A stretch of DNA of 64,000 bases from Bolinopsis microptera (Eukaryota > Ctenophora > Tentaculata > Lobata > Bolinopsidae). The notes below the pieces were generated by a model. That model was given only the letters and a program-made list of their open reading frames with translations, was not told where the DNA came from and did not search any database. Of the stretch, positions 223-54,600 are shown one piece after another. The DNA is taken from the NCBI RefSeq assembly GCF_026151205.1, contig NC_087084.1, forward strand, positions 10,319,453 through 10,383,452. Direction: 5' to 3'. The position numbers and the translations under genes are program-made. The first letter of the stretch is position 1. Each line of letters starts with the position of its first letter.

Positions 223-2800
223 CGTCTGTGTGTAATTTCCGAACGGTTATACAAAAAAAACGGTAATAGTTACGGGACTGGTTTTTTCGGTATAGTGCCG
301 ACAAAACTCTGACGAAGCCAATAAGCAAATTTTATAAAAATCGGCCGGTGGTAAGTGGTTTAATTGATGGTTTTGTACCACAAAATATGTTACATAAAAT
401 GGCTTGAGAAGAACGGCAAGAGTTACGGGGCTAGCTCTCTCTCTCTGCATAATATTATGTAGCGTATATATTACATGGCGTATATATTACATGGTCATAT
501 AATACTATAAACTTATTAGGGGAAGGAGTGCTCAAACGGTCTGCTTGGACTGTAGAGAGAGTTCATACTTTCATACGACAATGTAATGCATGTTCACAAA
601 TATGATAGGCTGGTGTGGTGCATGGTGTTAAGGGTTAATTTCTATTGAATATTGATTAAGAATTACTATCTTTTAAGCATACTATTGGATACGTGAGGGC
701 ACTCCGAATAGAATTGCTCGCCTAATCCGGGTTTTGACTCAGCGGGTAATTACTTCTACCCTTTTTAACTGCGGCAGTGAAATCCCGGCCGTAGGCCGGG
801 TTACACTAGTCTTTTAATATTGTCAGGATATTATACTACTGAGTGGTGTCCCAGAAATATTACATAAATGTTAACATAAAATATGATATGAATACTGTTA
901 TGAAACTATGCTCTGGCCCAATAAAGCCAGCTACTCCAACAAACATGTCACGTGATATAGGGAATGTGAGCAGCGAATGAGTGAATGTTAGACCCTGCAT
1001 GTTGTGTAAAGTACTTTATAATATACTGGGTACTAGGTGAGAACAGAAATCTATCTGGTGTTACTGAACTTTCACAAATACTTTGTATATCTGAGGATAT
1101 GGTACGTGACTTCTCACTTCCAGGAGATATGGTACGTGATTTCCAGGTGGAATTTTCTGTACTTTGTCGATTAGACCTAAATTTGTGTTAGGCATTAAAA
1201 CCAAATACACTACGGCGTGTAATGTCTGTTACATCACTAGCGTGACATAAACAGTTTAGATATGGGAAGTTGATTCTGACCCGCCCACAATGTTTGTCGC
1301 ACTAATTATAGGAATGTGAGGTATTCTTGACATAGTTTAGTTGGGGAATATTGTGTATCTACTCAGATTTATGCTAAATAATTATACATAATCGGTATAT
1401 GTCGATATTGTACGTTTAAGTAAAGACTGGCACAGTTAGGACTTGTATTAGTACAGCACACACGTTTGAAACAGGAAAGTATCAAAAGGAAATCTAAACT
1501 ATCTTGTTATCACTACGCCTACATTATTTCATAGATACTGAACTTAATCATGGTACATATTATATAACGATCTTGAATATATGCAGTAAAAAACAGAAAC
1601 AGGTAAAGAATATTGTTGATATTTTTACTTTGAAGTGCCCATTTAAAAGATGTTTCTAACTCTCTCCCCAGAACGGCGCTAATAACTCCCTTCTCTGGGT
1701 AGATGTAGGTATCTGCTGAGTTATGGCTCTTTACTGCTACATCCAGCTATATCTAGCTATATCTAACATTAGTTAGCCCTCCCGGCTATATTATATAACC
1801 TCTGCTGAGTTAACACACTAACCCTATCTAGCTATATGTTCTTTGCTACTTGTCGCTAAATAATGCAACATAATATCCAGCTATCGCTTGCTATTTTATT
1901 GTAGTGGTTACCTTTACGTCACTCGTTGATGGTGAGTCACCATCGCCTCCAAGTATTAATAAATAAATGTATTAGCTTCTCTTTCAAGCTATCGCTTCAA
2001 TGCTCAGAGCTGCATTCAATACTTCTGCGTCATATATTTTGTTTTTATGTTAAACTTACTCTCTCATGCAAAATGCATGTTCTTTATAAAAAAAAACATA
2101 ATCAGGTTTTGAGCAGGACTGGAAGTCAAACTGTCCTGTGCAAACAAAATTGAGTGATACTCAAAATTAGATTATTTCATGAGTGCTTCCATTTATTATA
2201 GTGTACAACAAGTTAGTATTATTTTTCGCCAGCGTCGTCAGCAGAATGTAATTAATTTTGAACTGGTCTTTTGAGTAGAAATTTAATTATCTTTATGTAG
2301 TAAACATCTTCTTGCAAGGAAGTCAACGAACATTGTAATTATTTAATCATCAACTCGCAGGAAACGCCAGCTGAATTAAAACAATTAACAAGGGTAACAG
2401 AATATTTGATCTTAAACATCTCCTTAAATCTCCTTACATCTCCTTAAACATATCTTAGAGTTCTATCTTATATCTACTTATAAACACGCACCTACACAAG
2501 ATTTAAGAACGGTGTAGTTCACAGTTTTCATCTCAATAAATCTTTCTGGGTGCTCTTATTAACTTATTTCACTCTTTTCAGCCTATCGATTACACATGAA
2601 TTTTCTGGGTACTGGGTAGTTTAGCGGTTCAAGTTCATTTTGATTTCGTATAATTCATTTCATGAATCACTGCGAATTGCAACTCATCAAAACATCAAAT
2701 AAACGATTCTGTTAACTTCTAATTTAGTATTTTATCGTGTAAATTCTTATCAAGGGTTACCTTCAAACGTTGTTTGCCTATTATTGTAGAGGGATAATTT

Positions 2801-2933
2801 TAAGTTGGTGGGTTACCTCAGTAGTGCCAATCTCTTCCAACACGTGACAGCTATCACCCAATCAGATGTGTGATTAGCGGTCACGAGTAGACCAAGGTGG
2901 GACTGTCTCAAATAAGATTCAACCACCAACTTA
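2801..2933. mobile_element. Small inverted-repeat element (MITE-like)
   Basis: The left end reads TAAGTTGGTGGG and the right end is its near inverse (CCACCAACTTA), about 130 bp apart, with no open frame between. That is the layout of a miniature inverted-repeat element. The target duplication is unclear because both flanks are short TA-rich runs. A chance inverted repeat is possible. Confidence 0.4.
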
Positions 2934-3501
2934 TTATTACCCAACTTTGATCATAGTACTACAATCACTGTGCTTTTCCATTCGATGTTGTCAAAATTTT
3001 ATTGACGCAAAAAGAATATATGCATATTATATATACTCCAGGTTTTCTTTTGTTGCGTTCTCTTATTTGACCATAAATAGATTCTTCTTTTCAAGCAAAC
3101 ACAGCTTGCTAATCGATTCTTTTGTTGCTGAGTGCTACGTTTTCTAAATAGTTACAAACTTACGCAACTTCTACAGTGCTTAGGACCACATACCAATAAG
3201 AAAATAGATTATAATAACCGTGGATTTGAGTGAATGATCATGATGACAATATGAATGAAATTACTGAACTGCAACCTCACCCACATTTTACTGCTTCTAA
3301 ATTGAATTGCACTCAGTATTAAGCATTCATTACAGCTAGGCTTATTGCAAATCTCATTCTGGGTTGATACAGATTCAAGCTGAACACAAGCACTGTTTGA
3401 AACATCTAATTGATTATGGTGAATTGCTAATTAATTATTTTAATTGAGCCTTATAAATTATTACAATGAACATTCAGGTGTTTTAACTTTATATTCTGCA
3501 G

Positions 3502-6500
3502 GATAAGAACGATTATAAGGAAGTGCTAACCTCTTTTGAAGTGATGGGTCTTAGTAATCAGGTAAATCTTATCTGGTGGTAATTTAACTGCCAAACTTAC
3601 TTCTTAAACACACAATGTGTGTGATAAGTAGTGGTTTTTTGGTTTAAGGAGCTTTTAGGTGCCACATATGTCCAGGTTCATTATAATAATGCAGGACTTC
3701 TAGGCAATGAGCTTGGTTGTGGGACACACTCAACTAGTGATAAGTAGTACTAAAGTTAGTATAGTATGTAGTACTATAAACACTCGTGAACAAGTGTGAG
3801 TTACCTAGTGTTACCTAGTTTGATAAGGGTGTGTAAATTCACACTTATTGGTAATCACAACCCTCGTTTATAGCTTACATTACCACTCTAATTACCTGTT
3901 GATATTGTTAATCGTTTATCTGATGTATACTGTATAGATCAGTTCTTAATTCAGGTGTCCCATAATCCTCTATATATATGATATTATCAATTGTCACCTA
4001 TCAAGACACACAATTTATATGTGATCCTACGATATCATGATATCTACCTACCTATGTTGAGTTTTATCAAGACTTGACGGGGCCATGATATAACATTATT
4101 ATATCATGGTTTTGTTAATGATAACAACTGTCAGTGTGACAGTTCACAGTTGTGAGTTGTCAGTAAAAAGTACGCTGTATAAGATAACAATTGTTGACAG
4201 TTGTACACTGTTCAGGTAGTGGAAGAGATATTAACGATACTAGCTGGAATATTACATCTTGGTAATGTTAGATTCCATATGGACGGAGGAGCTCAGATAT
4301 CTGATAGAGATGGTATGTAAAGTATTATTTAGTTGAATTTTAGTTGGATTTCTAAAGTTGGGTAAGATTAGATTCATGTACCATGTTTATTTCTGAAGCA
4401 TATGATTTTAGTAATTACATTTTGAAATAATTCCAGGTATTAATTTTGAATAGCAACTAGATTTAACGTATTATGATAGTTTTGAGTTGGAAATGTGAAG
4501 TGAGATTAAAGGGTGGTTTAAAGTTAAATTTTGTTCCAAGTGCGCTGTGATAAAAACATTATAATAACTAAGATAAGATCGCCCCAAGTGTGATCAATGC
4601 GTGATATAGTGATGTGATAAGTGTGATAAGTGTGATAAAGTGAGTAGTGCGATATTGTTCATATTTACAGACAGGTGCGGGAACACGATGTATGCCGGAG
4701 ATAATGTCACTGTTGAAAACATGCAATGTGAGTTGAGTGCGTGATAATGTGTGATAAGACTATGTGTGATAGAATATTGCGAAGTGTAAATACTAACGGC
4801 GCATGTGTCGAAAAAGTACATATTACTCTTACGTGCGAAATGGTAGTCCTAAACCTGTAAATTGTTTGTTGCTGTTAATTTGTTGCAACAGCACGAGCTT
4901 GAGACGTGCTAAATTAAAATATTTCACGTCAAGTTCAGTGTTAATATTTAGTATCACTGGTAATGAAATATCAAGCGTAATTCCTGATAGCCCTCTTGCA
5001 GTAAGTCAGAGTAGCCGTGCTCTTTCTCTGTACTTGATGCTATGTTTTATGTATACTCCTACTGAAATTGCTTGTTTAATCGGATCGTGTTATTACTGAG
5101 CCTTCCATGCAGTGCATGAACACATTCCTGTAGCGGAATGCAACATATTTATGCAATCAGTGACCACTTGCCCTTCTTAATATCGATCACAAATATCATA
5201 CAATTATCACTTCTATATCTCAACTTTGACGAAGCCCACTAAACGGAAAAAAATGTGTAACTTCTTCGCTACATAAACTTTCACTTCCTTACTACGCTTC
5301 TCCTTTTGCAACAAACTTGACCGCTTGTTCGAAAACATATGAAGGGCGGTATCGCTGGCTTTGTAAGTTTGACATATCAGTGACGCGCGGAGACATTCTG
5401 CTGTCTAAAATACAACGCGCAGCACTCAGTAAAGTCACGTGAGCTCAGCTCTTTCCCGACGTGACCTAATTGACCATGCCCAGTTACAGTGCCGAATTAG
5501 GTCTCCCCTCAGGCGGCATTGAATTGAAAATGGTATGTTATGAAAAGGAACACCGCACTGTACAATATTGTGTATCTGGAGAAGTGGAATGGGACATTTT
5601 CACGGTCAAAAGGGACGGTCAAAATTGGGGACCCGAGATTGAGTCCACCGTTTCGTTATCAGCGCATTGATCGCGCGCTGTCGAGGAAAATTAGTTTGGG
5701 GAAGGTGGTAATATTATTTGAGTCGATTAAAGACAGGCTAACGTTATTTCTCGTATTAAGAAAATAAGTCGTCGCACTTGTTGAGTTGAGGAAAATTAAC
5801 ACATCGACTTTGCAACTGTACATATGTAAGTACAAACTGAAAGAGTAGAAGGTTCACCAAACATGTTGATTTGAAGAAATGTGAGCATTAAATTACAAAG
5901 TTAACATCCAGCACCCTACCAGTATCAATAAACAATTAGCATATAATATCAACTTCATACTGCAGTCCCTCATAGTCCCTGGTATCACCTAGATCTCATT
6001 AAAAACATAAGGCCCCTAACAAATGTGATACACACAGTATATAAAAGTCCCAACACTGTCTTCAAAACAGTATAACTGCTAGTTAACACCGGAAACTCCA
6101 TCCACTTTATTCCCTGTCTCAACCCCTGTTCTCCTTTAGTAAACCTGCTGTAGTACGTATCAGCAGGAGGTGAGATGTTGTGGAACTTGAAGAACTGTGC
6201 TGTGGTTTTAATAGAGCTCCCAAACTGTGGTACCACCTCCACACTCTGAGATATCCACGCAGGAAGCATGTCAGTATTGTCTGCAAAACGCTCATCTAAC
6301 AGTAACATCACCCCGTAGTCATGTTGGTGTCGTATAGCTCTACCCAAAGCCTGGTTTACAGCTCTGAACGCTGTGTGTTGGTACCAGGCTTTCCCTCCTA
6401 TCTTCCTTCTATCCAGGTATTCCATCTTCATGGCTACTAGTGGGTCGTTCATGTAGGTGTAAGGTATACCAACTATTATCACCCCTCTGCTTTTTTCTTC

Positions 6501-27432: not shown

Positions 27433-27608
27433 TCACATTTGTAACGTGTCGAATACTGACTAGGATATCTCGTTACCGCGTCACCAGAGTTCAAGCTACT
27501 TGACCAGGCCTTATATGGAATATATATTATCATACTTCTATTTCTATATTCAGGCCAAATTGCTTTAAAATGCACTTGAATGTCATAAATGTTATTATTA
27601 TTAGTCAG

Positions 27609-28245
27609 TGTAATAAGCGCCAAGCGCGAGCACAGAACATTTTTTCTCCGATTTCGATAAATTTGGTACCAAAATTTGTCTAAAAATGTGAATAAAATTA
27701 ATCCACCGTGTAGCAATTTTTGCTAAAAATGCTACATGGCGCTTGTTCGCCGCGCGTGCTTTTTTCGCGCAAATTTTAGTTTTTGGCCTATAACTTTCAC
27801 ATTTTCAGGTATTATCACATAATTATTATGGCAACGTAATCAGCTCATCGAGACGAAACTTTTGGTACTAACATTTTAAGATTTAAAGGAAAATTATTTT
27901 CAAAATTTTTCAATCTGAATTTTGAAAAAATTTTGAAAAATTTGGTGCTTCAAATATTATAATTTTGGTACCAAAAGTTGCGTCTGACTAAGCTCATTAC
28001 GATACTGTAATAATTATTTCAAAATATTCAATATTTTAGGAGTAATGGGCATTTTAAGCAATAAATTACCCATTTTTCGTCCTTTCTCATTTCTTGTAAT
28101 GCACAGGAGACCCACATATAGCTCGACGTTATTTTGCTACACGGTGAATTTGCATTATTCACACTTAGAGGCAACTTTTGGTACCAAATTTATCAAAATC
28201 AGAGACAAAAAATTCTGTGCCAACTCATGGCGCTTACGTATTACA
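27609..28245. mobile_element. Fold-back inverted-repeat element
   Basis: The segment at about 27609-27720 (containing AAATTTGGTACCAAAATTTG and CACCGTGTAGCAA) recurs inverted at about 28128-28245. A second, inner inverted pair lies at about 27820-27870 and 27960-28010, around CTTTTGGTAC. The whole 640 bp can fold back on itself. There is no transposase frame. A non-autonomous fold-back DNA element is the best reading. Confidence 0.65.
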
Positions 28246-29450
28246 TAGACTAAATAAATATTGAAAAGGACTACCAGTACCAAGGATTTTGAAAATGTGG
28301 CTCGCGCTGCGTCGTTTTGTTGCACTTGCATTAAACTCAAAAGTTAGAATCGTGAAATTAAACCACCTTCAGGAACATAAATATAATGTTTAACAAAAAC
28401 AACGATCCAACAACTTGCGAGTTGTGAGCGAGTTATATATATTACATAATAATTGCAGAGAAGTGTTGTCGTAAATGTCTAAACATGTCATTGAGCAATA
28501 AGCGCCCATGGCGCCGAGTACCTACGTTATCTAATTCAACTATTTCATATTTTGTGTTAACATTTTGACTTTACAAATTATGTACTAATATCACAATATC
28601 GTGTACGTCATTCCTGGAATTATGAATTTCGGTTTTTGAGTAGGTGCCTGGCCAAACATCAACCAGTAAAATGTTAGTTACAAATCTTGATTTTAGTACC
28701 GATACCTTCATGTGTATACCATCACATGATCGTATTCCTGGAATTATGAATTTCGTTTTTTTTATTCGGCCGGAGTTGTTTTACGAGTTGGTTACAGAAC
28801 GAGATCGTTCACAATTTTTAAAGGCCAAATTTTAGCTTTTTAAAACCCCCCTCACCCCGTTAATATGGGTCCATTACTATCATCAACACGTAAACCAACT
28901 TCGGCCAAAGTTAAAATTGGCCGAAGTTGGCTACGATCTTGGTGACAGTAAAGGATGGGTAGGAGAAATACCACCGACCTTAGCTTTGTCCTACCCATCC
29001 AATTATTTTATTTATGATTTAACTTCAAGGTCGTTACCATGTCAGTACAACAATAAATCGCACAAAAAGTAAAAATCTTGAACGAAATGAAACTGATCAT
29101 TCCAAAACTTGTAATGTAACCCTGTATGGGCTAATATATAAGATCATCAAGACTTATATTGATATCAGGTGAATAGTACACCGATACAAATGGCATTTCG
29201 AGTTTCGACTTACGCATTTTGTTTTTCGGACTGCAAACAATCTTTGTTGGAATGACGATGATCTGCATTTTGATTTTGTTGTCCCTGACATTTTACTGCA
29301 CTTGCTATTTTCGAGACGCTCCTGAAATTTTGCAACACAGAACTCACACTTCACAGTCACAGTTGCTGGGTGACTACTGGAGTGCTGGGTTAAAGTTGGT
29401 ATTAAATTTCATGTGATGACTCCTTAATCCTCATATCATGCTTATTTCAG
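28246..29450. other. Spacer with hairpins
   Basis: No gene recognised. A 22 bp direct repeat (CATTCCTGGAATTATGAATT type) occurs at about 28613 and 28734. Two hairpins lie at 28895-29000. Confidence 0.5.
28895..29000. repeat. Two adjacent perfect hairpins
   Basis: CCAACTTCGGCCA and its exact inverse (28895-28907, 28918-28930) form a 13 bp stem. GGATGGGTAGGA and its inverse (28953-28964, 28989-29000) form a 12 bp stem just downstream. Confidence 0.8.
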
Positions 29451-48600: not shown

Positions 48601-51600
48601 TGCTCATTATTCATCTCTCTAACCTTCAGGATGTGCTGACCAGTACCTCTCAGTATTTCTTAGTAGGAGCTCCTGTAAACTCCTAGTTCCTGCTCTCACA
48701 TACAGCTCTAGTGGCTCCACCCATCCCTAGACCGGCAGAAATACCATTGTATTTATAGCTTTGTAGACTACGTTCTTATCTTAATCACCATAAGGCCAGA
48801 GGGGGGGGTAAATGGCACTTTTGTAGTTTTTGCATATTTGATAATAGCTACTGGAGACGAACAAAAAGAAAAAAACCGGATCAAAATCTGACCTTGCGCT
48901 TCTGAGATATCGCGCGCTCAATTTTGAGGTTTACCTGTAATTACATGTTAAACTGGAACTTTAAACGGCTGTTACTTTTTTGACCTTTCGATTCCTTAGT
49001 TGAGAAAACCGGCCAATCCCTGATCTTGAGATTTGGTACAGTGGTTCCTTGGACAATTATCCTCACATCTGGTGCAGCGATTTTTTTTATTTGACTCTGT
49101 TCTCAAATTATGAGGTTAACCATGTCAAAAATTCGGAAAATTTAATTGGTTAACCTCATAATTCGAGAAACGAGTCAAATAAAAAAAATCGCTGCACCAG
49201 ATATCTAGATAGTTGTCCAAGGAACCACTGTACCAAATCTCAATATCAGGGAGTGGCCGGTTTTCTCAACTAAGGAATCGAAAGGTCAAAAAATGTGTTT
49301 TGAGATAGATGCAATTTAGTGTTTTCAAAATTTTGAATATTCACTGGAATGTATCACAGTTCGTTAGTTAGGACTTTTTATACACTTAATAACGTTTGCT
49401 TGATCAGACCTGGCCGTCTCCTAAATGATTTTAGCCACTTTCAGTAGTTAATGTCCTTGTATTGTAAAAAATGAGGTTAACCAAGACTTCCTGTAAACAC
49501 TAACTGCTTAGAATTTGGTTGTTAACCTCGCTTTAGACCATATAACACTGGGATTGGTTTATCAATATGTTACTATGTATGTAGTAAAACATTTGTACAG
49601 TATAACGATTACGTTTTTGAGGTTAACATGTAATTGACTGGTCAGATATTCAAAAAATGAGAGGTTAACCTCATTTTTTAGCCATTTACGGGTAAAATCT
49701 TCTACTAAAATATGGTCAGTTCAAATCACCTTTGTCACGTGATTATAGTTGTAGGCATTGTGATACCAATAGATACCTCACTTCGATATTGTGGTACATT
49801 ACATAGGTAAGAATCGTATGTATATTCCCTACGGTACCAAAATGTGATGGTTAACCTCATTTTTTTCATTTTCTCAAGATAAAAGAAAGTCAATCAACAC
49901 GTCATCTATTTAGAAATTTGTATACCGTAAACTTACGATGAAAATAATAACTCTATCATTTGATCTATTCTCGATATATCTAAAAGAAGAGGTTAACCTC
50001 ATTTAATCACGTTTGGATATTACTTTTTCTGATAATTATGAACCTAAAATTTAGAGTTTACATTTGCTGACCGAAATAACAAAAAATTATGGCGTGTAAT
50101 AAAATATGAACCTCAATTTTATTAACCTCAATGTTGTATAGTCAATTTTGTGAAAATCGGTTAACCTCAATTATAAAATAAAGTTAATCAGCTACAAATA
50201 TGTGAATAGCAGCAATGTTTTTGTCATCAAAAATTAAATCGATTTAGAAAATAATATTTTGGTAGAATTTTTTGACCCCTTACCCCCCCCCCCTCTGGCC
50301 GAACACAATGATGCCTAATGGTCCTAAGACAATAACCCTAATGGTCAGTGTTTGAAAAACACTCATATGAATAGACACACACGCTCCTTCCCTAGCCGCT
50401 GCCTTGCTCACTGAGTAAATGGTTGTATTCAGTTTGGATTTGCTGCTCCTACCGTAGTCAAACAGCTGATGCTAGTAGTAGTAAATCTTTGAATTAATTA
50501 CGTTTATATAATAATAGTAAAACCACGATTTACTGTACGCACTGATGAAAGCCATGTGCTTTAACTGAGATTCAATAATCACAACTTTCATTAACCGTTT
50601 AATCCCATTTACCGATAACGAACCTTACCGTTATAACATTCAGTGAAATATCGTATGTATGCAGATTATCAAGTAGATCTCTGACGCTCTTCCGAAAAGA
50701 TGAAAAGCACCCTCAGAACTTGTCTGAACTTCAGAACTTGTCTGAATTTGCTCATACTTAGCATCTTAGTACCCCAACTTGTCTGTGGAGATGACATAGA
50801 AACAGCCATCAGCCCTTTAAGTGCAGCTGAAAATGATGCTCGAACAACTGCTAAATGCTCTGATGGATACACCATGATTGGTTGCAAGTTAGCAGAGGGT
50901 AGCACCTACCGCATCTCAGATGGGCTTTACTTTGAGGATGGTGGATGTGCTGCATTAGCAAAAGGTGCTAAAGGGGTTCAGGTGAGACAGCAATAAGTTT
51001 TCTCTTAAGATGTGCAAACCCTAGTGCAACTCTAGTGGACTGTTGGGCCTAACAATATGCACCCCTTATTCTATCATCAACACTAAAACATTTAGAAAGT
51101 TAGAATAAGAATAGCTTCTACTGATATGTACTGAGACAGGTTTTATTTGTTATTATTCCCAAATTTTGATAAAGAACAACTTTCAGAGTCAGGCAACCTG
51201 TCGGAAGAACAGTCAAATGTTCCAAGTCGTACTCAAAAACAGACACAGAGTGGATAAAGGTAAAACTGGCAGTCTCAAGTGTGATGACGGCTACACAATG
51301 ACGGACTGTCTGTTCTACACTGCTTGGTGGTCCCAACCAACTGGAGTGGAATCTGATGGAAGGGTGCCCTCCTGCACAGTGACCTGTTTAACCAGAGAAT
51401 GCTTCCTAAGTGCTATATGCACGATGACCAATATTGGTAAGTTGAAACGTAATCCCCTCTCGGTGCAGACTGCAGGTTACTTTTAATAATTACTCCAGTC
51501 TCCATAAATCTGTTAGTATTGCAACTTATAAACTAAGAGTTTAATTAAGTTTACAGTTTAGACTAAGTAGCGTACAATCAAATCCGTTGTGTGAATATAA

Positions 51601-54600
51601 TAACTCCAGCTGTTGACGGTGGATGGAGTGAGTTTGGTGTTTGGTCACAATGCTCTAAAGAGTGCGGTGGAGGAACAAAGAAGAGAGACAGAACCTGTAC
51701 TAACCCTGCACCTCAATATAAAGGAGCTGAATGCCAAGGAGAGGAATCAGAACACCAGGATTGCAACACACAAGATTGTCCAATTGACGGTGGATGGAGT
51801 GAGTTTGGTGGTTGGTCAGACTGCTCTGAAGAGTGTGAAGATGGTACCCAACAAAGATCTAGACAATGTTCCAACCCAGCACCAGCTAACGGAGGAAAGG
51901 AATGTGCTGGAGAGGACGAGGAGGAAAAGGAATGTAACACTCAAGCTTGCCCTGGTGAGTGAGAAGCTGGTTATATCAACTGCTAAACTTGGAGTTTAAG
52001 ATTCTCTTTCTTTTTACGCTACCAACTACTTCATCTCACCACACAGTGTAACTATTTGTGAAATGTGCCCACATTGCCACTTGTTTGCCTCAAGTACCAA
52101 CAAATTCAGACATTTCACAATTTCAGTGGTACAATGTGATGAACTAAACCTTGGTAACACTCACCTCTCGACCATTGTCCGTGTTAAGGACACTGTTGTC
52201 ATCGCAACCTGCTTCAAACCTAAACACTACGTTCTAATTGGTGAACACGAGGTCACGTGCCAGTCTAATGGACAGTGGACAACAACACCAACATGTGTAA
52301 AATGTGGTATGTACATAACTTTTACATTCCGTAACTGCCCTCCGTACATTACTAAATATTCCTCAAATCCTTTTATGGCAACATTTCTCTATTGATGATA
52401 TTATCATTTGAATAACATTTGAAAAACTTTTCCGCCAGCCATAAACTTATTACATGATGTTTTAGGGAACATCGTTAATAAGTTTATGGTAACTTTAAAT
52501 GGAATTAAGAGTGTAATGATACGTTGATTTCCAGATCAGTTTAAACTTTAAGCAATCTAGGTAAACTATAGGTAAAAATATAATATTAATCATAAGCTAA
52601 AATGTACTAATCTTTGTATTCTAAATGGGGAAAAGAAGAAACATTGTCAGTCAGTCGAGAAAATTGTCAGTCGGGCTATATGGCAGCTTTGTAGATGTTG
52701 TGACAATGCTAGTAGTGGTCCCAGGCTTGCGACTGGAACTGCGGTGTTTTAAATCGATTTAACGGTATACCAACGATCCACCTCCCACCTTGTTGTTTGG
52801 TACTTAGCATTAATAGTGTTAGCTGTAGCCATTTATAGCAAGAATCTTAAAACTAAAGGGGATGACAAGGAAAAGAGGAAGGAAAAAGAATAACGGAACA
52901 AACAATTAATTAAAGTATTTACAGGAGCATTAGTTATTGTAATTACAAGCTTCAATAATAAATCACAGACTAAAACATCTAATTAAAATGACACTTGGTA
53001 CGCTCGCCCATTTTCACTGGTCAGTCTGAACTTCGGTTTAGCACGTTGTACACTTATTCACCTAAGTTTCAGAATTTTTTCAGTTTAGCAGAGTTAGTAC
53101 CCGTGTTTCAATATAATCAAAAGATATCAGGGGAGTTCTTTAATAATGTTATGGTACAATGACTACTGTCAGTAATTATTCACTCCTACACATACAACCT
53201 CAATTCTAACTATATTTTATTAATTTACAGTACAGCACACAGCTCACCTATCTACCTACCTACAGACTGCTCATTATTCATCTCTCTAACCTTCAGGGGG
53301 TGCTGACCAGTACCTCTCAGTATTTCTTAGTAGGAGCTCCTGTAAACTCATAGTTCCTGCTCTCACATACAGCTCTAGTGGCTCCACCCATCCCTAGACC
53401 GGCAGAAATACCATTGTATTTATAGACTCCGTTTTTTTCCTAATCACCATAACGGTCCGAACACAATGATCCCTAATGGTGCTAAAACAATAGCTCTTAA
53501 TAAACGCACACGCTCCTTCCCAAGCCGCTGCCTTGCTCGCTCAGTAAATGGTTGTACACAGTTTGGATTTGCTGCTCCTGCCGTAGTCAAACAGCTGATG
53601 CTAGTAGTAGTAAATCTTTGAATTCTTAGTAGGAGCTCCTGTAAACTCCTAGTTCCTGCTCTCCCATACAGCTCTAGTGGTTCCACCCATCCACAGACCG
53701 ACAGAAATACCATTGTATTTATAGACTCCGTTCTTATCTTAATCACCATAATGCTCATAATGGTCCTAAGACAATGACCCTTAATGGTGCTAAAACAATG
53801 ATCCTTAATGGTCAGTGTTCGAATAGCGCTTATCTTAATAGATGCACACGCTCCTTCCCAAGCCGCTGCCTTGCTCTCTCAGTAAATGGTTGTATTCAGT
53901 TTGGATTTGCTGCTCCTGCCGTAGTCAAACAGCTGATGCTAGTAGTAGTAAATCTTTGATTTAATTACGTTTATATAATAATAGTAAAACCACGATTTAC
54001 TGTATGCACTGATGAAAGCCATGTGCTTTAACGGAGATTCAATAATCACAACTTTCATTAACCGTTTAATCCCATTTACCGCTATAACATTACCGCTATA
54101 ACGTTCAGTGAAATATCGAATGTATGCAGATTATCAAGTAGATCTCTGACGATCTTCCCAAAAGATGAAAAGCACCCTCAGAACTTGTCTGAACTTCAGA
54201 CCTTGTCTGAACTTGCTCATACTTAGCATCTTAGAACCCCAACTTGTCTGTGGAGATGACATAGAAACATTCATCAGCCCTTTAAGTGCAGCTAACGATG
54301 ATGCTAAAACAACTGCTACATGCCCTGATGGATACACCATGATTGGTTGCAAGTTAGCAGAGGGTAGCATCTCCCGCATCTCAGATGGGCTTTACTTTGA
54401 GGATGGTGGCTGTGTTGCAGTAGCAAGACGTGGTACAGGAGTTAAGGTGAGACAGCAATAAGTTTTCTCTTAAGATGTGCAAACCCTAGTGCAAATCTAG
54501 TGGACTGTTGGGCCTAACAATCTGCACCCCTTATTCTATCATTTACACTAAAACATTAAGAATTAGAATAGCTTCTACTGATATGTACTGAGACAGCTTT

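Follow-up and report, generated by a model that had tools for sequence, protein, structure and literature searches.

A gene-less, probably Kolobok-like TTAA transposon family with a conserved array of internal palindromic sites in Bolinopsis microptera

The window, a stretch of 64,000 bases of the Bolinopsis microptera genome (NC_087084.1, positions 10,319,453 to 10,383,452), carries a tandemly duplicated region that includes a thrombospondin-type frame. In the eight frames of the window that we scanned, Pfam matches included a glycosyltransferase, thrombospondin type 1 and a DEAD_2/Helicase_C_2 helicase, and a rhodopsin-type receptor fell just below the cut-off; such a set fits an animal. The element that we describe here sits in a spacer of the duplicated region (Table 1), and no frame of 100 aa or more is listed within it. 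Its ends form an inverted pair that is perfect over 15 nt in the repeat analysis of the window. Its internal palindrome lies off-centre, with arms of 147 nt that are 93% complementary and have 24 nt between them; the DNA fold of 48970-49299 has z = -31, and 0 of 100 shuffles were as stable. An earlier note on this DNA had claimed inverted-repeat ends and palindrome arms of about 130 bases. Both are real, with arms slightly longer than it had said. A second long imperfect palindrome, of about 650 nt and 66% self-complementary, lies at 27601-28253 of the window.

Table 1. Features of the element and of its surroundings, in window coordinates.
Feature	Position	Strand	Basis or remark
Complete non-autonomous TTAA-family transposon copy, 1,507 bp	48794..50300	.	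near-full-length copies and ends
Left terminal inverted repeat GGCCAGAGGGGGGGG	48794..48808	+	15-nt inverted pair; G-run length variable among copies
Right terminal inverted repeat	50286..50300	-	15-nt inverted pair
Internal palindrome, left arm	48976..49122	+	matches centre of shorter palindromic relatives
Internal palindrome, right arm	49147..49293	-	
Left junction CATAA	48789..48793	+	native spacer, not TTAA
Right junction GAACAC	50301..50306	+	native spacer, not TTAA
Paralogous spacer B without element, CATAACGGTCCGAACAC	53448..53464	+	
Site 1 (GAGGTTAA)	49112..49119	-	
Site 2 (TTAACCTC)	49150..49157	+	divergent pair with site 1
Site 3	49473..49480	-	
Site 4	49522..49529	+	divergent pair with site 3
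Site 5	49619..49626	-	
Site 6, full palindrome GAGGTTAACCTC	49661..49672	.	paired with site 5
Site 7	49851..49858	+	
Site 8, full palindrome GAGGTTAACCTC	49989..50000	.	
Site 9	50122..50129	+	sole site with a varying column (3/30 copies)
Site 10	50161..50168	+	

We describe the internal sites as GGTTAACCTCA-like. The earlier note had counted about twelve of them in 1.5 kb, and we count 12 GAGGTTAA or TTAACCTC octamers at ten sites, two of which are the full GAGGTTAACCTC, plus seven copies of GGTTAACC. First-order Markov simulation of the element, run 500 times, gave a mean of 0.08 octamers and a maximum of 2. Outside the element, the window has one octamer and no GGTTAACC in 62,493 bases, and there is one octamer in 94,764 bases of piggyBac loci. 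The sites begin with three divergent pairs, whose spacings in the majority sequence are 34, 45 and 42 bp, and continue with four sites of one orientation; they concentrate in the middle and the right of the element, not near both ends. The core TTAACCTC is preceded by GG at seven of the ten sites and followed by A at nine and by CATTT at four. The perfect 16-mer ATGAGGTTAACCTCAT is found at one place in the genome, which says little on family specificity because the family's sites differ from this exact form. A literature search by site and end sequences returned nothing about transposons, judged by the titles listed, and no known binding protein in the literature was matched to the site. GGTTAACC occurs in a hairpin oligonucleotide in the available part of the piggyBac structure paper (PMC7351741). 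Within the literature that we searched on the sites, the ends and TTAA transposons, the internal site array is new to print.

The DNA search of the genome (264.65 Mb in 232 contigs) gave 442 candidates, of which 40 were scored. All of these except one, which covers element positions 1-1320, are near full length at 95-100% identity; these 39 include the window copy. We write the ends of the family as GGCCAGAG(G)n, and also TTAAGGCCAGAGG, with the termini GGCCAGAGG. The 17-mer TTAAGGCCAGAGGGGGG from the family end has 275 occurrences in the genome and its reversed control has 0. Searching the genome with the ends, as the earlier note had suggested, gave 289 ends TTAAGGCCAGAGGGGG, the sum of 74, 159 and 56 five-G versions by preceding base; this would amount to about 145 copies if each had two ends. 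Pairing neighbouring plus and minus ends used 261 of the 289 and gave 85 pairs, with further pairs possible: 54 are of 1.4-1.6 kb, 9 of 620-760 bp and 10 above 2 kb. The terminal G/C run goes from about 7 to more than 20 across copies (L009, L017, L020). In some places element ends stand in tandem, about 29-38 bp apart, as if amplified as a short repeat (four at C5:13514304-13514413 and three at C5:13296137-13296225).

We read 30 copies, in which the ends set the element boundaries. Both termini, 5'-GG...CC-3', are present in all 30, and TTAA is on both sides in 28 (57 of 60 flanks). The two exceptions are L022, with TTAA and ATAA as flanks, and the window copy, with no TTAA on either side. 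The TTAA duplication is defined by the other copies, which is what came of the comparison of target sites that the earlier note had proposed. G precedes TTAA at 102 of the 289 ends, and among the read flanks G is outside TTAA at 20 of 57, whereas at other TTAA sites it is there in 325 of 1,686 flanks. The target preference is TTAA with G just outside. As in a MITE or other non-autonomous family, the copies are numerous, homogeneous and gene-less, and they have inverted ends and target duplications; at 1.5 kb the element is longer than the usual MITE size (<500 bp in the available part of PMC2872659). The transposon origin that the earlier note had supposed is borne out, as what we found was not a single copy without related ends but 39 near-full-length copies and 289 ends. 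The element at 48794-50300 is a recent copy of a large gene-less transposon family.

The window copy is without the TTAA duplication of its family and so its site does not define the target. We compared the filled site, CATAA-GGCC...GGCC-GAACAC, with the empty spacer B and found that 4-6 bp are missing, that there is no target duplication and that the end bases of the element are intact. The loss is given as 4 to 6 bp because the CC with which the element finishes matches the CC of the target as well. The element is also absent at the same point in another spacer of the window (CATAATGGTCCTAAGAC) and in spacer D on C5 (CATAATGGTCCTAACAC). The earlier note had taken 53440-53470 to be the uninterrupted target; the element is indeed absent from this spacer, but the missing bases in the filled site and the lack of a TTAA duplication keep it from being a clean empty site. 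Because the site is not TTAA and bases are missing, we believe that the window copy was probably captured into a break or abnormally joined, and did not arrive by the usual integration. We rejected a simple target duplication, as TTAA is absent at this point from the other three spacers, of which two are in the window and one is on C5. Loss of the TTAA by mutation is unlikely since both junctions are native spacer, and a later two-sided deletion that ran exactly to the end bases of the element is possible but contrived.

The element and its nearest copies are 99.5% identical (about 0.5% difference), whereas the spacers are about 92% identical to each other (about 8% difference). Since the three other spacer copies also have no element, this supports the view of the earlier note that the insertion is later than the spacer duplication, which would be the simplest reading if gene conversion between spacers is left aside. 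About 15 bp downstream of the insertion point, the spacer copy on C5 (L073, C5:7340460-7341300) is broken by another sequence, which starts with CTTAA followed by GGGGGCCGGGGG. G-ended TTAA elements may have entered the spacer on two occasions.

Some of the shorter members of the family are palindromic, and the internal palindrome is common to them and to the element. Element positions 1-482 match both L062 and L063, which are about 690 bp long and palindromic, in both directions at about 71%, and for this reason we read the internal palindrome as the centre of an element of that type. In L062 and L063 a pair of sites flanks the palindrome centre. Most simply, the right part of a shorter palindromic element would have been replaced by about 1 kb with eight more sites; the opposite order of events is possible. 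Among the 20 largest of 35 repeat families we did not find long terminal direct repeats, which characterize KolobokP, for the element.

To describe conservation at the sites we used 30 copies, the best-scoring ones, which have 7 to 54 differences from the majority sequence. Of 88 site columns one is variable, against 16.6% of the region columns; so low a value came up in none of the 1,297 circular shifts or the 20,000 random placements. For private changes the sites show 0 against an expectation of 8.2, a value reached in 1 of 1,297 shifts, and for shared changes they show 1 against an expectation of 8.7 (7 of 1,297). For columns 500-1480 taken by themselves, there are 0 private changes against 7.4 expected (1 of 979 shifts as low), and the mean divergence and the variable-column fraction are as low in 3 and 0 of 979 circular shifts; the shared changes, 1 against 4.3 expected, are a weak result (120 of 979). 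With CpG columns excluded, 1 of 86 site columns and 168 of 1,110 other columns vary (Fisher p = 3.5e-5), and the same comparison in columns 500-1480 gave 1 of 70 and 107 of 840 (Fisher p = 0.0018). With one half of the copies (15) used to define the sites and the remaining 15 to test them, 9 of 20,000 placements were as low, and the reverse split gave 465 of 20,000. Counting gaps at the sites gave no information, since 623 of 1,297 shifts had counts as low.

The more distant members give a similar picture. L057, L059, L062 and L063 each keep all 16 of the site columns that they cover, against 30-32% difference in their other covered columns, although the shared history of these four keeps them from counting as four separate tests, and local alignment is biased towards conserved sequence. 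There are no site changes in L058, L070, L071 and L072. L064 has 2 changes in 37 site columns against 13% elsewhere, and L067 has 2 in 52 against 11% elsewhere. Both the copies and the relatives that are about 30% diverged conserve the internal sites. The sites are not strictly required, because L061, a 531-bp relative whose ends are good, lacks them altogether and L060 has a single one.

The earlier note had also proposed looking for an autonomous partner, and none turned up among the pairs that we read. We found no transposase gene between the family ends in six of the ten pairs above 2 kb (L057, L058, L059, L070, L071 and L072; the four left out are of 10.3 kb on C4, 7.1 kb on C5, 18.2 kb on C6 and 4.7 kb on C10), and no partner in three stretches from unpaired ends (L065-L067). 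Among the matches listed for the genome, at least 34 to Kolobok, at least 26 to piggyBac and at least 43 to THAP, none is inside or up to 500 bp from the twelve family end pairs above 1.6 kb. A tblastn search with three Kolobok-locus proteins and three piggyBac frames had no match in L057, L059-L067 and L070-L072 (L058 was excluded). L057 (C2:16129248-16136401) is a family copy of 6.7 kb that contains a tandem array of units of about 331 bp, most of which have an 82-aa open frame; the one unit scanned had no Pfam match. L058 is a family copy with a LINE-like insert (980-5892) that has one open frame of 486 aa and another of 1154 aa; the longer of these has endonuclease and reverse transcriptase domains. 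L070 carries reverse-transcriptase fragments, and the longest frames scanned in L059, L071 and L072 match no Pfam family.

Koloboks with THAP and Mutator-like transposase domains are present in the genome, and none of them is linked to the ends of this family. One of them, kol796 (L068:981-5201), has an open 796-aa frame with both domains and three near-identical copies. It has the end TTAA followed by AGGACCAG at one end in two loci, the only end seen, and more than 30 shorter relatives have this end; the kol796 family is possibly recently active. Another, kol749 (L069:1469-3715 and the 246-959 region), is a 749-aa Kolobok with both domains beside a 238-aa frame that matches the P2X7 C-terminal 'ballast' domain, and there are direct repeats of 147 and 96 nt near it. 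The pairing of kol749 with a P2X7-type frame resembles the published Kol0 lineage with KolX. Both proteins are like the Kolobok type in their THAP and Mutator-like domains and in a D-x-x-H seen by eye, as is kol796 in its end of TTAA followed by AGG. However, there is no GGCCAG... end around either of them and no GAGGTTAA or TTAACCTC octamer in L068, L069 or L074 (a kol796 derivative). Shorter derivatives of its own exist for kol796.

The superfamilies named as makers of TTAA duplications are Kolobok and piggyBac (in the available parts of PMC9587614 and PMC2872659). The former paper, in the part available, gives Kolobok termini as 5'-RR and YY-3', unlike piggyBac, with a TTAA duplication, and the latter gives piggyBac termini as CC[C/T]T. 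The family has the TTAA duplication that both superfamilies share (in 28 of the 30 copies, the window copy itself being without it), and by the rules in these excerpts its GG...CC termini in 30 of 30 copies are of the 5'-RR/YY-3' kind, and with GGCCAGAGG in all 30 they are not of the CC[C/T] type. TTAA targets together with 5'-GG...CC-3' ends make Kolobok-like, not piggyBac, the best reading for filing the family, with the transposase itself only inferred. The earlier note could not assign the element to a known family. By target and termini it can now be called Kolobok-like.

Gene-less transposons are usually thought to need little beyond their ends. Our reading, which we hold to be probable, is that this is a non-autonomous Kolobok-like cut-and-paste transposon whose internal palindromes are putative protein-binding sites kept for mobility; the protein and its role are inferred. 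A Kolobok-type transposase, encoded elsewhere and supplied in trans, would recognise the GGCCAGAG(G)n ends, cut the element out and place it in a TTAA target, with a preference for those that have G next to them on the outside. A protein that mobility requires or profits from would bind the ten GGTTAACCTCA-like sites, most likely through a DNA-binding domain of the transposase or as an accessory protein. Copies that lose sites would leave fewer descendants, and the sites would be kept in this way. Our working analogy for such putative binding sites is piggyBac, in which the cysteine-rich domain of the transposase binds, as a dimer, to a palindromic internal repeat of 19 bp close to the ends (in the available part of PMC7351741).

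Low variation at the sites might have nothing to do with selection and come from recent amplification from a few masters, plus chance or a low local mutation rate. The 30 copies are all young and only the best-scoring ones were read, and the weaker tests (the reverse split half and the shared changes in columns 500-1480) would fit. Against this, the placement, circular-shift, base-by-base and CpG-excluded comparisons concur, and the relatives that are about 30% diverged keep all of the 16 site columns covered, so we regard this explanation as quite improbable. It is also unlikely, if somewhat less so, that a host transcription factor or chromatin protein binds the sites and that they are conserved for a benefit to expression of the element or to the host, not for transposition. 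There is a precedent in carrot MITEs, which carry host-factor sites for LHY/RVE factors (in the available part of PMC13102513). The lack of private changes exceeds what selection for mobility predicts if the changes arose after insertion; it would fit post-insertion constraint and may leave room for constraint in place, for example through a host factor. However, simultaneous constraint at 30 scattered loci is demanding, the octamer is rare outside the family, both in the rest of the window and in the piggyBac loci, and no known factor was matched to the site.

A piggyBac-type transposase could instead move the family, with the GG ends as an unusual variant. TTAA is the piggyBac target, and several of the at least 26 piggyBac transposase matches in the genome are in long open frames. 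We nevertheless think this a poor prospect, since GGCCAGAG is absent from all 26 piggyBac loci that we examined, and 25 of these have a TTAACCC/GGGTTAA word, a candidate end only, as in published piggyBac and coral CMITE ends (available part of PMC2872659); in addition, Kolobok termini are purine-purine, the same as those of the family (available part of PMC9587614). Lastly, the conserved array might consist of copies of the target context that the element prefers (TTAA with G/C on its outside, GGTTAACC), and the transposase would bind these copies as it does a target or assemble on them. This we consider very doubtful; we did not meet such a layer of control in the literature that we examined on TTAA transposons. 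If it were true, the internal array would govern transposase loading, titration or self-avoidance.

In kind this is an ordinary element, and it is notable for its conserved internal site array: short sites hundreds of bases from the ends stay nearly unchanged across copies and relatives that are about 30% diverged. If, as we favour, the transposase or a partner binds the sites, then it can be cis-acting sites in the interior that determine which of the gene-less copies spread, and the site would be a ready probe for finding its protein. If a host factor binds them, the element distributes about ten binding sites with each insertion.

Non-autonomous Kolobok members such as the Xenopus T2-MITE, in the available part of their published description, are like this family in their TTAA duplication, their purine-purine/pyrimidine-pyrimidine termini and their gene-less amplified copies. 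The ends of T2 are AGGRR in that description, compared with GGCCAGAGG here, and the internal array of ten conserved palindromic sites is a feature of this family that sets it apart from such members. The family is like piggyBac in its TTAA target and differs from it in the termini, which are CCY in piggyBac, and in that the internal repeat of piggyBac is near the ends whereas the sites here are spread over 1 kb. The piggyBac/TTAA MITEs of Acropora corals, called CMITE, likewise target TTAA and have an internal stretch of high conservation, which its authors suggested might aid transposition (available part of PMC2872659). In the same source CMITE is about 100 bp long, with mostly CCC ends and one conserved block of 75 bases, whereas the element here is 1.5 kb long, with GG ends and ten dispersed copies of one short site.
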